DNA of 64,000 nucleotides from Hylemonella sp. (lineage in GTDB: Bacteria; Pseudomonadota; Gammaproteobacteria; Burkholderiales; Burkholderiaceae_C). Where the stretch lies: the NCBI RefSeq assembly GCF_027532185.1, contig NZ_JAPZSV010000001.1, positions 248,001-312,000 on the forward strand, written 5' to 3'. Position numbers and translations under genes: made by a program. The notes under the pieces are model-generated. The model was not told the DNA's origin and made no database searches. It saw only the letters and a program-made list of their open reading frames with translations. Shown one piece after another: positions 4,248 through 52,031 of this stretch (positions within the stretch are counted from its first letter, which is position 1; every line of letters starts with the position of its first letter).

Positions 4248-7043
<2,796 letters not shown>

Positions 7044-47039: not shown

Positions 47040-47534
47040 TCAGGACGCGCAGGCCTCGCCCGGCTCGTGCCCGCAGGAGGGCAAGGCGGTGTCGGCCGTG
47101 GCGGGTGCACCGGCCTTGAAGGACTCGGCCGTGGTGTCGTAACCCTTTTCCTGCAGATAGGCCACAAGGCCAGCGTCCATGCTCTCGGCGTGCCCCGGAA
47201 ACCACTCGACCAGGGCCTCGATCATGCTGCCGATGTATTCGGTCTCGCCGTTGAGCGCGCGACGCTCCACCTCTTTCATCACCTGCAGCACGCTGGCGTG
47301 CTGGCCGAAGTGGCAGAAGTCCTCGGGGATGCCGCAGGCGCGCATCCAGCGCTCTTCCATGGCGAAGTGTTCCACGGTGTGATTCAGCAGATCGCGGTAG
47401 ACACCGAGCTTCTGGTCGGCCGGGGCGGCCGTGGTGGCGTTGATCAGGTCCACGAATTCCTGGTGCGTGTGGTCGGTGCGGGCATCGCCCAACACGAGCG
47501 ATTCGCTCCAGTTCAGGGTATGGGTGGCGGACAT
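47040..47534 (-). CDS. Bacteriohemerythrin
   Basis: 164 aa. Di-iron ligands of hemerythrin are all visible: His22 or His24, His56, Glu60, His75, His79, His115 and Asp120 (HTVEHFAMEE, HFGQHASVL, HAESMD). It binds O2 reversibly in the cytoplasm. The start at 47534 is chosen because AAGGA is correctly spaced; the ATG at 47540 is too close to it. A Cys/Gly-rich C-terminal tail (ALPSCGHEPGEACAS) is additional to the domain. It lies downstream of the exported globin/cupredoxin genes. Confidence 0.93.
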   Translation of the reverse strand: MSATHTLNWSESLVLGDARTDHTHQEFVDLINATTAAPADQKLGVYRDLLNHTVEHFAMEERWMRACGIPEDFCHFGQHASVLQVMKEVERRALNGETEYIGSMIEALVEWFPGHAESMDAGLVAYLQEKGYDTTAESFKAGAPATADTALPSCGHEPGEACAS

Positions 47535-47649
47535 GGTCATTCCTTCTCGGGCCGTATCGGCGTGTCGGCAAGAGGCCCGGCCATGTGTCGCGAGGTGACA
47601 GAGGCGGGCTTGCCGGATTTCGCCCCGGATCATAGCCCAGCCCCTGGCC

Positions 47650-48306
47650 TCAGAGCCGGCGCCGGCGGGGTACCACCCCAAGCTGTACGGTCTGCTGCAG
47701 CGTGGTAGCCCCGAGCTGCAGGGCCTGGCGCGGCGGCTCCACCAGCAGCTCCGGATGCCAGACGCGCAGTTCCACCTGGCCCGCCGGCAGGCCCTCGAAG
47801 CGGGCTACCCCGCTCTCGTCGGTCTTGAGCGTCCAGGCCGAGTCGGTGACGAAGACATGGCCACGCATGGAGCCGTGCAGATGGCAGCCCAGCAGCACGA
47901 CGCCAGGCTTGTCCACCACCAGTTCCGTGGCGGCGGGTGCCTGCCCGGCCGCGCGGCCCGCGAGGCGGAACTCGAACCCCGCCGGTGCGTTCGGGTCCAG
48001 CGCGGCCAGACCGGTGGCCTGCGTGCCGCGCACATGGTGGTCCCAGCGGTCGAGATTGGCGAAGCGCAGCTGCGTGCCTGGCACCACGACGGTCAGGGCC
48101 GGCACAAAGCGCATGCGCTCCTGCTCGATCAGCACGGGGCCGGGCGGTGGCGCTGAGGCCGGCGCAGCACGACCGACCGGGTAGAGCACCACCACGGCTT
48201 CCGCCAGGGGCTTGCCCTCGCGGTCCTGCACCTGGACGTGCAGGCCGGAGGCCTGCGCGGCCCAGCAGACCAGCTGTGTGGACGCGATGCAGAGGAGTTT
48301 GCGCAT
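47650..48306 (-). CDS. Exported cupredoxin-like protein
   Basis: 218 aa. A signal peptide (about 1-19) precedes a beta-rich domain. Candidate copper ligands are His90/His91 (RWDHHVRG), Cys141, His142, His144 and Met147 in GCHLHGSM, which resembles the type 1 copper site of plastocyanin-like methylamine-utilisation-type proteins. The C-terminal part (about 155-215) looks like a second carboxypeptidase-regulatory-like beta domain. It starts 1 bp after the truncated-globin stop, so the two are coupled. Confidence 0.78.
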   Translation of the reverse strand: MRKLLCIASTQLVCWAAQASGLHVQVQDREGKPLAEAVVVLYPVGRAAPASAPPPGPVLIEQERMRFVPALTVVVPGTQLRFANLDRWDHHVRGTQATGLAALDPNAPAGFEFRLAGRAAGQAPAATELVVDKPGVVLLGCHLHGSMRGHVFVTDSAWTLKTDESGVARFEGLPAGQVELRVWHPELLVEPPRQALQLGATTLQQTVQLGVVPRRRRL

Positions 48307-48307
48307 C

Positions 48308-48742
48308 TCAACGCTCCGTGATTATGTCGCGGTGCATGGGCGCCAGCAGGGCCAGCAGGCGGTTCTGCTGTGTGAAAGGGATGCCCCGGGCGTCCATGGC
48401 GGCCTGCAGGTCTTCCACCAGAGCATTGAATTCGTGCTTGCGGATGCCCATGTCGGCATGCGCGGCCTTCATGTCGGCGCCCTCGTACTTGCAGGGGCCG
48501 CCGCTGAGCTGGCAGAACTGATCGCTCAGACTGTCCTTGAGAGCCTTGGGATTGGTGTCCTTGAAGTGGTGCTTGATGCGCTCATCCCGCAGGACGCGCC
48601 CGACAAAATCATCGACCAGGGCCGTGATGCCAGCTTTCTGGCCCAGGGCCTGGTAGAGCGTGTCAGAAGCAGCTTGGGTCTGGGCTTGAGCGCCCAGCAC
48701 CACACCCAGAAACAGGAAGCAAACAGCGAAGAATTTTTTCAC
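48308..48742 (-). CDS. Exported group 1 truncated haemoglobin
   Basis: 144 aa. A signal peptide (about 1-20, ending GAQAQ) precedes a TrHb1 globin: LYQALGQKAGITALVDDFVGRVL, SDQFCQLSGGPCKYEG with the glycine pair, and KAAHADMGI with proximal His95. Most bacterial truncated globins are cytoplasmic, so export is notable. It may handle O2 or NO in the periplasm or pass electrons with its cupredoxin neighbour. Second gene of the DUF3034 operon, 38 bp after it. Confidence 0.88.
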   Translation of the reverse strand: MKKFFAVCFLFLGVVLGAQAQTQAASDTLYQALGQKAGITALVDDFVGRVLRDERIKHHFKDTNPKALKDSLSDQFCQLSGGPCKYEGADMKAAHADMGIRKHEFNALVEDLQAAMDARGIPFTQQNRLLALLAPMHRDIITER

Positions 48743-48780: not shown

Positions 48781-49713
48781 TCAGAAGGCGACCTGGCCGG
48801 ACAGGTAGTAACCCGTCTGGCGGCGGCCATCGGTGATGCCGGGGACGATGCGCCCCAGGTCCACATAGGCCAGGGTCAGCGACAGGTTTTTGCTGGGTGC
48901 CCAGGCGATGAACAGGTCTTTCCAGTCGTCTTCGGCCAGGCCCTTGCCCAGGCCCGAGGCCGCGCCCAGGGCTTCAAGGTTGTTGGGCTTGTTGCGGTAC
49001 TCAGCGCCGATGGCGATGTTCTTCCTGACCAGATAGGCCACGGAGACTTCGGTCTGCAGGCTGCGGCTGTTGCGCGCCTGCGCCTTGCCGCCAAAGCCGA
49101 GCAGGCCGTTCTGGTTGGCGTTGGTGGAACGCACGGTGGCGTTGACCAGCAGGCCCTGACCCAGGAAGAGCTTGGTGGCGTTGACGTAGACGTCGGTACC
49201 GCTGTCTTTGACGCCCAGGAAATTGAAGACGGACTGCAACGAGCCGGGGCGAGTCTGCTTTTGCTCCAGGCCCACGGCGATCTGCGGCATCCAGCTGTTG
49301 CTGTCGAGGATGGCGTCGCCCGCCACCTTGAGCTTGAGACCGAGCACGTCCATCTGGATGTGCTGGCCGGGCTGCACGCCGAAGGCGGCCACGCCATTGA
49401 GCGCGATGCTGGGCGAGGCGTCAAAGTCCTGGCGGGCCACAGACAGCTCGACGCGGTCTTTCAAGCCCAGGGCCAGGCCGTAGCTGTTGAGGGCGTAGTC
49501 CTGGGTGACGGCGCGTGTGAGGTAGCTGCTGACACCGATCTCGCCTTCCGTGGCGTTGGTGCCGATCACGGCCCAGGGTGTCAGGCCACCCCCGGCCGAG
49601 CCGGTGATGGAGCTGACACCGCCCGTCAGCAAGAGTTTGCCGGTATCGGCCTGGGCCAGGCCGGTGGCACAGACCAGGCAGGAGAGCGTGGCGTACCGGA
49701 AGAAGGTCTTCAT
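48781..49713 (-). CDS. DUF3034 outer-membrane-like beta protein
   Basis: 310 aa. Signal peptide 1-22 (ending GLAQA), then a Gly-rich body of alternating strands (GKLLLTGGVSSITGSAGGGLTPWAVIG, AIGAEYRNKPNNLEAL) ending in GYYLSGQVAF, a C-terminal Phe as in outer-membrane barrels. This matches DUF3034. Function is unknown; its operon with a globin and cupredoxin hints at transport or sensing of a redox ligand. Its promoter carries the ECF-type motif at 49759-49788. Confidence 0.82.
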   Translation of the reverse strand: MKTFFRYATLSCLVCATGLAQADTGKLLLTGGVSSITGSAGGGLTPWAVIGTNATEGEIGVSSYLTRAVTQDYALNSYGLALGLKDRVELSVARQDFDASPSIALNGVAAFGVQPGQHIQMDVLGLKLKVAGDAILDSNSWMPQIAVGLEQKQTRPGSLQSVFNFLGVKDSGTDVYVNATKLFLGQGLLVNATVRSTNANQNGLLGFGGKAQARNSRSLQTEVSVAYLVRKNIAIGAEYRNKPNNLEALGAASGLGKGLAEDDWKDLFIAWAPSKNLSLTLAYVDLGRIVPGITDGRRQTGYYLSGQVAF

Positions 49714-49758: not shown

Positions 49759-49788
49759 GGATACGCACCCCGACGCCGATCGGATTCA
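49759..49788 (-). promoter_or_regulatory. Predicted ECF-sigma promoter of DUF3034 / globin / cupredoxin operon
   Basis: On the minus strand: -35 TGAATCC (49788-49782), 16-bp spacer, -10 CGTATCC (49765-49759). The spacer begins and ends with G. Two other copies with the same spacing stand at 51291-51320 and 51356-51385. The start codon of DUF3034 is about 46 bp downstream. Confidence 0.8.
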
Positions 49789-49824
49789 AAAAAGCAGAAA
49801 AATTTTCAGTAGCCCGTGCCGGCT

Positions 49825-50598
49825 CTACAACTGACGCTGGATCAGGCTGCCCTTGAAGAGCACGGGACCGGTCGGTCCGCCCGCGCCGGGCACGCCGCCC
49901 AGCGGCTCCAGGCTGATGGCCAGCGTGGGCACTTCGCGCACATCGGCTTCACCCGCGGTGAGTTTGACCAGCGGCCCCTGACCCAGCACGCCCAGCGAGC
50001 GCGGCGCGCCGGCTGGCGGCAGGGCCCAGAGCTGCAGGGATTTGTCACGGCCCTCCTGGTAGCTGCCGACACGCTGCAGGACCAGGGTGTTGTTCTTGGG
50101 GTCAAAGGTCACGAGCATGGACGCCGTGGACCGATCGTCTGCCAGCACGGCCACATACTGAATCTGTGGCGTGGCCTGCAGCTGCTGGCGCAGCTCGGCG
50201 ATCTGGGCGCCCGACTGTGTGCGTAAATCTTCGTTGACCTGCAGGCCCACGACCACGGCCGCCACGGTGGCCAAGGCGCCCGCCGCGGCCACACTGCGCC
50301 AGACGAAAAGGCTTTGCCACCAGCCGTTGCCGGCTGCAGGCTTCATGGCGCGCGCCGTCTGGGCCTGAAGCTGCAATTGGTTGTGGATACGGGTCCAGAC
50401 ATAGGCGGGTGGTTCGATGGCTGGCTGCAGCTCGGTCAGGCCGGCCAGCCGACCTTGCCAATGCTGGCAGGCGCGTTGCACGGCGGGCTGCTGCCGCGCC
50501 ACGGTCTCGAAACGACGGCGCGCGCCACCGCGCAGCGTGCCCAGGGCGTAACTGGCCGCGAGGCGATCGAGCAGTTCGGGATGGTCTTGGAATCTCAT
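49825..50598 (-). CDS. Anti-sigma factor (RskA-like)
   Basis: 257 aa. A cytoplasmic N-terminal domain (1-95; LLDRLAASYALGTLRGGARRRFETV) binds the sigma factor, a single membrane helix spans about 99-120, and a periplasmic C-terminal domain (SLQLWALPPAGAPRSLGVL, VFEGSLI-like VLFKGSLI ending) follows, as in RskA. It lacks the HxxxCxxC zinc motif. It begins 9 bp after the sigma factor stop. It should hold the sigma factor at the membrane until an envelope signal releases it. Confidence 0.9.
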   Translation of the reverse strand: MRFQDHPELLDRLAASYALGTLRGGARRRFETVARQQPAVQRACQHWQGRLAGLTELQPAIEPPAYVWTRIHNQLQLQAQTARAMKPAAGNGWWQSLFVWRSVAAAGALATVAAVVVGLQVNEDLRTQSGAQIAELRQQLQATPQIQYVAVLADDRSTASMLVTFDPKNNTLVLQRVGSYQEGRDKSLQLWALPPAGAPRSLGVLGQGPLVKLTAGEADVREVPTLAISLEPLGGVPGAGGPTGPVLFKGSLIQRQL

Positions 50599-50607
50599 GG
50601 TCGTATC

Positions 50608-51183
50608 TCAGTGCGCGCCGGCCATGCAGCCACGCAATTGGTTCAGACCGCGACGGATCCAGGTCTTGACGGTGCCCAAGGGCAGACGCAGCTGCTCGGC
50701 CAGCTCCAGGTGGCTGAGGTCGCGCAGATAGGCCAGGCTGAGGACTTCGCGCTGCCGGTTCTCGAGCTGCTGCAAGCAGCGGTGCAAGGCACGCGCCTGC
50801 TGGCTGGCCTGGACCTGATCGACAGGGTTGGGGGCGTCGCCCTCCAGGGTCTCGGCCAGGGCGTCGTCCAGCTCCTCGGTGCTGTCGGCGCGCTCGGCCG
50901 CGCGCCGCCGCAAGAGGTCCAGGGCGCGGCTGCGCACGATGAGACCCATCCAGGCCATCGGCGGGCTCAGGCTCGCGCGGTAATCACCGGCCGAGCGCCA
51001 GATGTACAGATAGCTCTCCTGCACCACGTCTTCGGCCCACTCCCGATGCCGCACCACCCGCATGGCCAGGCCGAACAGCAGAGGCGAGGTGCGTGCGTAC
51101 AGCGACTTCAGCGCTGACGCATCCTGTAGCGCGACCTGGTCGAGCAGGGCCGTCAGTTCCAAATCCTGGGCTTCGAGCATCAT
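50608..51183 (-). CDS. ECF-type RNA polymerase sigma factor
   Basis: 191 aa. Region 2 (LLFGLAMRVVRHREWAEDVVQESYLYIWRSAGDY) and region 4 (LENRQREVLSLAYLRDLSHLELAEQLRLPLGTVKTWIRRGLNQL) are clear, and no regions 1 or 3 are present. The start is at one of two adjacent ATGs (51183 or 51180). A frame extends to 51285 but would begin only 6 bp past the predicted -10. It is paired with an RskA-like anti-sigma factor and has its own ECF-type promoter, so positive autoregulation is likely. Confidence 0.92.
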   Translation of the reverse strand: MMLEAQDLELTALLDQVALQDASALKSLYARTSPLLFGLAMRVVRHREWAEDVVQESYLYIWRSAGDYRASLSPPMAWMGLIVRSRALDLLRRRAAERADSTEELDDALAETLEGDAPNPVDQVQASQQARALHRCLQQLENRQREVLSLAYLRDLSHLELAEQLRLPLGTVKTWIRRGLNQLRGCMAGAH

Positions 51184-51290
51184 GGCGCGATTGTGCTCGA
51201 TCCGGATCCAGCGAGCCTCACGCGCGCGGCGTGAGACGGCAGACCACAGTGTCTGCAGACGGGGGCCATGACAGATGATCTGCATGGGAT

Positions 51291-51320
51291 GGATACGCCG
51301 TGCAGGGCCACGCGGATTCA
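51291..51320 (-). promoter_or_regulatory. Predicted autoregulatory ECF-sigma promoter
   Basis: On the minus strand: TGAATCC (51320-51314), 16-bp spacer, CGTATCC (51297-51291). Same bases and spacing as the sites at 49759-49788 and 51356-51385. It points at the sigma factor gene, about 108 bp upstream of its start, leaving a ~100-nt leader. Confidence 0.8.
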
Positions 51321-51329
51321 GCCCGGCCC

Positions 51330-51341
51330 ATATCCGGATAT
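51330..51341. promoter_or_regulatory. 12-bp palindrome between the divergent ECF promoters
   Basis: ATATCCGGATAT is a perfect palindrome placed between the -35 elements of the two divergent predicted promoters (9 bp from one and 14 bp from the other). It could be a site for an additional regulator of both. Confidence 0.4.
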
Positions 51342-51355
51342 CACCAGGGGTCTCT

Positions 51356-51385
51356 TGAATCCGGATGCAAGGTCCTTGCGTATCC
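51356..51385 (+). promoter_or_regulatory. Predicted ECF-sigma promoter of the DUF3455 lipoprotein gene
   Basis: TGAATCC (51356-51362), 16-bp spacer, CGTATCC (51379-51385). It matches the two minus-strand sites exactly in both hexamer regions and in spacing. The DUF3455 start is 94 bp downstream. Confidence 0.8.
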
Positions 51386-51479: not shown

Positions 51480-52031
51480 ATGACCACCCGTACCCTCACC
51501 GCCCTGGCGGCCGCCACCCTGCTTTCTGCCTGCGCCATGTCCGGCGGTGGCATGTCCACGCCGAGCTCTGCACAGACCGGTGTGCCCGACGCCGTGAAGG
51601 TGCCGGCCGGCCACAAAGCGGTGCTGGAAACCGTGGGTGTGGGCGAGATCACCTACGAATGCCGCGCCAAAAAGGACATGGCGGGCGCCTTCGAGTGGGT
51701 CTTTGTCGGACCCGAGGCCCGCCTGATGGATCGCAGTGGCAAGGATGTGGGCCGTTACTACGGCCCGCCCGCCACCTGGGCCAGCAACGATGGCTCGCGC
51801 ATCACGGGCGTCCAGCTCGCCGTGGCCCCCGGTGGTGAAGGGAATATCCCGCTGCAACTGGTCAAGGCCAATCCGGCCATGGGCATGGGCGCCATGCAAG
51901 GCGTGAGCCATATCCAGCGCCTGGCCACCCGCGGTGGTGTGGCGCCGGCCCAGGCCTGCGCCATAGGCAACGTCGGTCAGAAGTCGGTGGTCAAGTACCA
52001 GGCCGACTACATCTTCTGGCGCGCGGTCTGA
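51480..52031 (+). CDS. DUF3455 putative lipoprotein
   Basis: 183 aa. A lipoprotein signal ends in LLSAC (Cys18), followed by a Ser/Gly-rich linker and the DUF3455 domain (VPAGHKAVLETVGVGEITYECRAKKDMAGAFEWVFVGPEARL split over two strands, KYQADYIFWRAV at the end). Function is unknown. AAGGAG lies 8 bases before the ATG. It is divergent from the ECF sigma gene and shares its promoter motif, so it is a likely target. Its 3' end faces argH with 19 bp between. Confidence 0.82.
   Translation: MTTRTLTALAAATLLSACAMSGGGMSTPSSAQTGVPDAVKVPAGHKAVLETVGVGEITYECRAKKDMAGAFEWVFVGPEARLMDRSGKDVGRYYGPPATWASNDGSRITGVQLAVAPGGEGNIPLQLVKANPAMGMGAMQGVSHIQRLATRGGVAPAQACAIGNVGQKSVVKYQADYIFWRAV

Follow-up and report, generated by a model that had tools for sequence, protein, structure and literature searches.

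A SigK-like ECF sigma factor of Hylemonella sp. and its predicted promoters, which resemble those of the RpoE-ChrR response

Two described regulatory systems are closest to the locus analyzed here. The first is SigK-RskA (families ECF18 and ECF19), described from M. tuberculosis and from the mpt83-sigK-rskA cassette of Y. enterocolitica; the cited part of the source reports a conserved cysteine pair in 94% of ECF18, 56% of ECF19 and <2% of other families (PMC7509140). The second is RpoE-ChrR (ECF11), which serves the singlet-oxygen response and includes RpoE of R. sphaeroides. The passages cited give the promoter consensus of PSPTO_1043 from P. syringae as TGATCC-N16-CGTA (PMC5507510) and the promoter of Shewanella (S. 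oneidensis) RpoE2 as TGATCC and CGTATT (PMC4336711). The same kind of excerpt names the fasciclin RSP_1409, cfaS, RSP_1090/91 and phrA as RpoE targets (PMC7074977) and a periplasmic glutathione peroxidase as an RpoE-type target (PMC4336711).

We analyzed 64,000 nucleotides of DNA from Hylemonella sp. (contig NZ_JAPZSV010000001.1, positions 248,001 to 312,000), which are called the window below. A first-pass annotation of this DNA had proposed three identical ECF-type promoters at 49759-49788 (-), 51291-51320 (-) and 51356-51385 (+), which would serve a sigma factor gene and two target units. Coordinates and strands of the trio are exact. Sites were located by pattern searches, and the 16-position form TGAATCCG-N14-GCGTATCC has 3 matches in the window and 0 in 100 dinucleotide shuffles. 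The locus contains the following genes and elements.

47650..48306, minus strand: cupredoxin-fold protein in which His/Cys/His/Met are conserved; looks exported by eye
48308..48742, minus strand: globin whose N-terminus resembles a signal peptide (PF01152, E 1e-15); looks exported from its sequence, by eye
48781..49713, minus strand: DUF3034 protein (PF11231, E 2e-91)
49759..49788, minus strand: predicted ECF promoter of the DUF3034-globin-cupredoxin unit
49825..50598, minus strand: RskA-type anti-sigma factor (PF10099 RskA_C in the C-terminal half, E 1.1e-22)
50608..51285, minus strand: SigK-like ECF sigma factor, recognition helix PLGTVK-T-WIRRGL; start at ATG 51285 (leaderless) or ATG 51183
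51190..51195, minus strand: conserved CACAAT box, 6 nt before ATG 51183
51291..51320, minus strand: predicted ECF promoter of the sigma/anti-sigma operon, with -35 TGAATCC at 51314-51320 and -10 CGTATCC at 51291-51297
51356..51385, plus strand: predicted ECF promoter for the gene of the DUF3455 lipoprotein; points away from the sigma promoter
51480..52031, plus strand: DUF3455 lipoprotein (PF11937, E 3e-32), AAGGAG shortly before ATG 51480

The -35 elements of the divergent sigma and DUF3455 promoters lie 35 bp apart. From the end of CGTA to the ATG there are 48 nt at the DUF3034 site and 97 nt at the DUF3455 site. Pfam finds DUF3034, globin, RskA_C, sigma-70 regions 2 and 4 and DUF3455 in the genes that had been named as facing the sites. 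The name cupredoxin has no Pfam match above the cut-off behind it; the cupredoxin fold does appear in a structure model, for which the best Foldseek match is amicyanin (E 3e-6), and none of the 8 rows departs from the set His, Cys, His and Met. The DUF3034 protein is a probable outer-membrane beta-barrel, judging from a low-confidence model (mean pLDDT 63) that matches FapF/OmpG barrels. A PHROGs search with DUF3034 and DUF3455 returned nothing. A bacteriohemerythrin-like protein is encoded at 47040-47681 (-), where it overlaps the end of the cupredoxin gene on the same strand.

The sigma factor consists of sigma-70 regions 2 and 4 only. The nearest PDB entry to its profile is SigK (4nqw, E 8e-31), and RpoE of R. 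sphaeroides (2q1z) matches with E 4e-21. A match to RskA adjoins the sigma gene in 35/35 loci. Two cysteines, C137 and C187 in the numbering of the first row, are invariant in 32/32 sequences; they were equated with C133/C183 of SigK by position only.

The genome assembly to which the window belongs comprises 13 contigs with 3,326,341 bases. A search of all 13 contigs with the 14-base form of the site gave 4 exact matches (the three in the window and G000:C13:275619), zero matches with 1 mismatch and 5 with 2 mismatches. The latter look like background because the reversed control also gives 5 at up to 2 mismatches. With 3 mismatches allowed, the window itself holds 5 further matches, each with exactly 3 mismatches, and the shuffles have a mean of 2.5 in all. 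The looser pattern TGAATCC-N16/17-CGTA has 5 matches in the genome; the fifth, C11:409147 (N17), falls within a gene of the other strand and was judged to be a chance match. The fourth exact site, on another contig, precedes a gene for a lipoprotein alpha/beta hydrolase, and it is conserved: homologues of this gene (58% identity) in two other genera (G099, G039) have the site as well. Exact sites are hence rare in the genome (4 in 3.33 Mb), with a bias towards gene starts. The first-pass annotation had spoken of a small local regulon; the sigma pair and two units are supported, but a fourth unit lies on another contig, and the regulon is wider in relatives.

Conservation was examined in 115 sigma neighborhoods, 35 from 150 genomes of the family and 80 from named loci (Polaromonas, Variovorax, Acidovorax, Hydrogenophaga, Rhodoferax and others); after removal of three duplicates 112 were distinct. 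Culturable relatives that have the system include Polaromonas sp. JS666 (L152) and Variovorax boronicumulans (L124). In the 115 loci the pattern TGAATCC-Nx-CGTA occurs 138 times with x=16 and 19 times with x=17. All other spacings from 10 to 23 together gave 3 matches (two N22, one N23), none of them at 10-15 or 18-21. The reversed pattern gave 0 matches at 16 and 17 and 2 at 19, while one of eight letter shuffles gave 3 matches at spacings 15-17 and the others 0.

The sites stand before particular genes. In the 112 loci a site with at most 1 mismatch is found upstream of sigma in 85/109 cases, of DUF3034 in 35/37, of DUF3455 in 17/31, of a Tat-type ferritin-like gene in 19/21 (13 with N17), of cytochrome c in 9/17 and of DUF4331 in 3/6. 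At the same threshold there is none before rskA (0/107), argH (0/19), lldD (0/18), globin (0/35), pfk (0/4) or hemerythrin (0/4), and the cupredoxin gene is preceded by one in 1/35. Reversed upstream sequences have no match at 0-1 mismatch for any gene. The conservation upstream of orthologues that the proposal of three promoters implied is present, but for DUF3455 it extends to no more than 17/31 loci. The distance from the end of CGTA to the start, on the gene's own strand, is 13-173 nt for sigma and 39-133 nt for DUF3034. In 24/109 sigma loci no site with at most 1 mismatch stands directly upstream; in three of those examined (L054, L061, L074) the sigma gene sits downstream of a DUF3034 unit that has a site.

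A matrix of 216 N16 sites, from loci with at least 55% sigma identity, reads TG(A/c)ATCC-R-N14-(G/c)-CGTA-(T/c); since these sites were chosen by their match to TG-ATCC and CGTA, it is mainly positions 3, 8, 23 and 28 that are informative. To two decimals, every one of the 216 sites has A or G at position 8. Sixteen positions had been called fixed. They are identical in the three sites of the window, but the two inner G vary in relatives, where position 8 is split between A and G (51/49%) and 69% of the sites have G directly before CGTA.

The site and the sigma factor occur together. The pattern TGAATCCR-N14-SCGTAY has 75 sites in 38/150 genomes of the family, and its reversed control has 1. 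It is present in 26/32 genomes with a sigma of at least 55% identity vs 12/118 others (Fisher p 1e-14), absolute counts that are slightly favored because the letters R, S and Y derive in part from these genomes. When sites at the sigma locus are set aside, the counts are 15/32 vs 12/118 genomes (p 1e-5). Some of the 12 genomes with a site but no sigma at this identity have it before DUF3034 or DUF4331 (G032, G049, G078). Eleven of 70 classified sites fall inside a called gene. At E <= 1e-50 the sigma factor is missing in all five further genomes sampled from the genus (G014, G145, G229, G298, G358), and its occurrence at genus level is therefore patchy.

Genes 3' of the distal sites in relatives encode DUF3034, DUF3455, DUF4331, fasciclin, ferritin-like proteins and cytochrome c, as well as periplasmic glutathione peroxidase, HupE/UreJ, the lipoprotein alpha/beta hydrolase and a DUF4148-like protein (below the Pfam cut-off). 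In G099, G039 and G071 DUF1365 follows closely on a site that lies near the end of a gene for an FAD enzyme (two with an Amino_oxidase match, one with NAD_binding_8), and the next gene in G099 starts with a match to CMAS (cyclopropane synthase). A further site, in G134, is found where a photolyase-related (DPRP) gene ends. On expression of DUF3455 genes one published account was found: two such genes of Delftia acidovorans on soybean roots rose 20-fold from day 2 to day 7, in an account whose cited part mentions no sigma factor (PMC7725335).

Two target classes were compared between genomes with and without the sigma factor. In the DUF3034 survey, which covered the 30 best of 49 genomes, sigma-bearing genomes including our own have the exact TGAATCC/CGTA site in 11/16 cases and one more has it with one mismatch; among the 14 other genomes 1 has the exact site (G040, 74% complete) and 6 have TGCATCC instead. 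In the fasciclin class (405-base hits) TGAATCC stands at 8/11 loci of sigma-bearing genomes, and at the 9 other loci TGAATCC was found 0 times, TGCATCC 4 times and GGAATCC or CGAATCC twice. Neither of the two fasciclin genes of the genome studied here has a site.

The best evidence that the sigma factor reads these sites comes from the sigma factor itself, because a residue of its recognition helix covaries with the third base of the -35 element. The sigma-4.2 helix reads PLGTVK-T-WIRRGL in the window and in most close orthologues, and mostly PLGTVK-S-W in distant sigma factors. Of 27 distant loci, 7 have an exact TGNATCC-CGTA upstream, in every case TGCATCC; 1 has it with one mismatch and 19 have none. 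The covariation set comprised 168 loci with a detectable site, and 18 more had none. Counted by promoters, Thr occurs with A 206 times and with C 20 times, Ser with C 32 times and with A 8 times. Counted by loci, the pairs of base and residue are A/T 126, C/S 19, C/T 7, A/S 1, C/A 1 and other 1, with 13 ties. The Thr/Ser residue thus covaries, leakily, with A/C at this base. We take it that the same helix position of sigma-E from E. coli contacts the -35 element.

Over 154 loci tested no other sigma column has as much mutual information with the base as the VK[T/S]W column, and the lead is clear. Within the 139 loci of at least 55% identity the same column leads only narrowly (0.199 vs 0.193); in a set of 108 close loci the helix residue initially ranked below an N-terminal column. 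In a tree built without the helix column the residue changes 12 times and the base 13 times. Six supported independent pairs that differ in the residue show a mean of 5.9 changes in the same direction and 0 in the opposite one (median sign-test p 0.03, range 0.03-0.22). From the side of the base, 9 pairs give 5.4 in the same direction, 0 opposite and 3.6 without difference (median p 0.06). An earlier tree test on 121 loci lacked power (p 0.25), and the set was widened to 168. In three Acidovorax loci (L118, L123, L136), the sigma, 72% identical to that of the window, carries Ser, and TGCATCC stands at sigma and cytochrome c, but DUF3034 retains TGAATCC in two of these loci.

The sites could belong to another ECF sigma factor, of RpoE-ChrR type or a SigK-like paralogue, and not to the one encoded between them. 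RpoE-ChrR sigma factors use TGATCC-N16-CGTA, and in G101 an ECF11-like sigma with a Cupin_7 neighbor (L360) has TGCATCC-N16-CGTAT upstream. Furthermore, sites are present in the 12/118 genomes that have no close sigma, where other sigma factors therefore read the same or similar sites. However, the sites co-occur with the sigma factor of the window and track its recognition-helix residue. In the genome studied here the sole match to the ECF11-like query (E <= 1e-30) is the sigma factor of the window, at 41%, and 2 of the 3 Cupin_7 matches are one tandem cupin gene, which has no ECF sigma within about 1.5 kb. We consider this alternative unlikely. Less likely still is that a DNA-binding regulator uses the sites as operators and that they are not -35 and -10 elements; some operators are also two-part sequences with fixed spacing, but the sites here lie on the strand of the gene at the distances from the start given above, their letters and spacing match published ECF promoters, and the covariation is with a sigma factor. 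That functionless copies of one sequence were spread by local duplication is suggested by three identical 16-position matches within 1.6 kb, yet it is scarcely credible, since the three sites show no resemblance by eye in their 14-base spacers and recur from genus to genus ahead of certain genes but not ahead of control genes.

The sites are almost certainly promoters, as far as their letters, spacing and position can tell. The three in the window and the fourth on another contig very probably serve the SigK-like ECF sigma factor encoded between the three. Autoregulation together with two target units, as the first-pass annotation had predicted, is backed by rarity, gene-start bias, conservation, spacing, co-occurrence and helix covariation.

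The sigma gene has two candidate starts. The first ATG of the open reading frame, at 51285, lies 8 nt past CGTA, and ATG 51183 lies about 100 nt further. The 34 residues that follow ATG 51285 are poorly conserved, and distant orthologues start near the equivalent of ATG 51183. We considered ATG 51285 as a plain over-extension; this is countered by the same in-frame ATG, exactly 8 nt after CGTA and with an open frame, in 5/5 closest relatives (L086-L090). Since none of the five has lost this ATG, a leaderless start at 51285 is to be taken seriously as an alternative. Over all loci an ATG stands at the 8-nt offset in 33/105 and is in frame and open in 9/105. The hydrolase gene has an in-frame ATG 8-10 nt past CGTA in three genera (the window's own, G099 and G039), and leaderless messages are therefore predicted from promoters of this kind. 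Loci of this predicted leaderless type are the window (51283-51285, minus strand), L086-L090, L238 (about 5620-5660), L210 and L218. Among the closest relatives, L086 has a sigma 97% identical to that of the window, yet its sigma -35 is TGAATCT. The two divergent sites are kept in L087-L090; in L087-L089 the second faces a ferritin-like gene, not DUF3455.

In 127/152 loci the sigma ATG is preceded, at 5-8 (mostly 6-7) nt, by a (C/G)A(C/G)AAT box. The same box is found before DUF3455 in 2/40 cases and before seven other genes in 0. A Shine-Dalgarno-like motif precedes the sigma ATG in only 10/152 loci; it precedes DUF3455 in 40/40, the ferritin-like gene in 31/35 and DUF3034 in 27/38, and is also mostly missing from cytochrome c (1/20), argH (3/19) and globin (9/31). 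The CACAAT box may act in translation or as a housekeeping -10 element; for the latter, sigma-70 reading, no -35 was seen at 10-25 nt.

These observations suggest a simple scheme. The RskA-type anti-sigma factor would hold the sigma factor until envelope stress releases it, and RNA polymerase with the released sigma would start at TGAATCCR-N14/15-SCGTAY promoters. The sigma-rskA operon would be switched on by its own sigma, a positive feedback, along with the unit of DUF3034 barrel, globin and cupredoxin, the DUF3455 lipoprotein and the lipoprotein hydrolase. Targets of a redox type are found in relatives: glutathione peroxidase, fasciclin, ferritin-like and cytochrome c genes and the amine oxidase/DUF1365/CMAS cluster. 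Because targets in relatives overlap those of RpoE-ChrR, the role may be in oxidative, perhaps photo-oxidative, stress of the envelope; this role rests on relatives because the fasciclin genes of the genome itself have no site. As to the signal, singlet oxygen, organic peroxide or other oxidative damage of the envelope is the likeliest candidate, with a chance that we put close to, but below, even.

If the assignment is correct, it provides a testable promoter code and regulon for SigK-like sigma factors of environmental Betaproteobacteria, and a likely regulation for exported families that are uncharacterised (DUF3034, DUF3455, DUF4331 and the exported globin). More tentatively, the SigK/RskA sigma of Comamonadaceae-type bacteria may have taken over much of the RpoE-ChrR singlet-oxygen regulon with a shifted -35, the helix residue switching repeatedly between Thr and Ser in step with A/C of the -35 across the promoters of each genome. 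The Thr/Ser-A/C series would then be a natural set of promoter-specificity switches, and this switch is directly testable by reporter assay.

The first-pass annotation knew of no published description. None was found for this promoter, but the near-identical RpoE-ChrR promoter is published, as the cited parts of two papers show (PMC5507510, PMC4336711). Among the matches listed in the open-licence literature, no paper concerned a TGAATCC promoter or DUF3034/DUF3455 under an ECF sigma, which is weak evidence of absence. We also asked whether the SigK-like sigma excludes RpoE-ChrR. By hand count, a Cupin_7 match lies about 1 kb or less from a match to the ECF11-like query (E <= 1e-30) in 16/150 genomes; exclusion is not shown, because 2 of these 16 (G064, G113) are among the 32 sigma-bearing genomes, vs 3.4 expected. 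At G064:C22:12518-15098 and G113:C2:520331-522919 the ECF11-like sigma with its Cupin_7 neighbor lies about 1 kb from the SigK-like sigma.

With SigK-RskA, as far as the cited part of its description goes, the locus shares the sigma profile, RskA_C and the two cysteines (PMC7509140). It differs in its neighboring targets, which are here DUF3034/globin/cupredoxin and DUF3455 or a ferritin-like gene. Fasciclin targets may be a further likeness, since a site precedes a fasciclin gene at 8/11 loci of sigma-bearing relatives but at none in the genome studied here; mpt83 encodes a fasciclin protein. With RpoE-ChrR, going by the excerpts cited at the outset, it shares the promoter core ATCC-N16-CGTA, a sigma/anti-sigma pair with a site before it and, in relatives, the targets fasciclin, the amine oxidase/DUF1365/CMAS cluster, glutathione peroxidase and a photolyase-related gene (G134). 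In contrast to RpoE-ChrR, the -35 is TGAATCC, one base longer than TGATCC; the anti-sigma is of RskA_C and not of ChrR type (ZAS-cupin); the sigma profile is nearer to SigK; and the genome studied here has no site before its fasciclin genes. By its sequence the promoter is a near twin of the RpoE-ChrR promoter; with the same core it would behave as such a promoter, although it does not belong to that class. The SigK-RskA and RpoE-ChrR systems are in this way linked by a common promoter core and common targets, and the present system is best read as a SigK-RskA architecture with an RpoE-ChrR-like promoter and targets.
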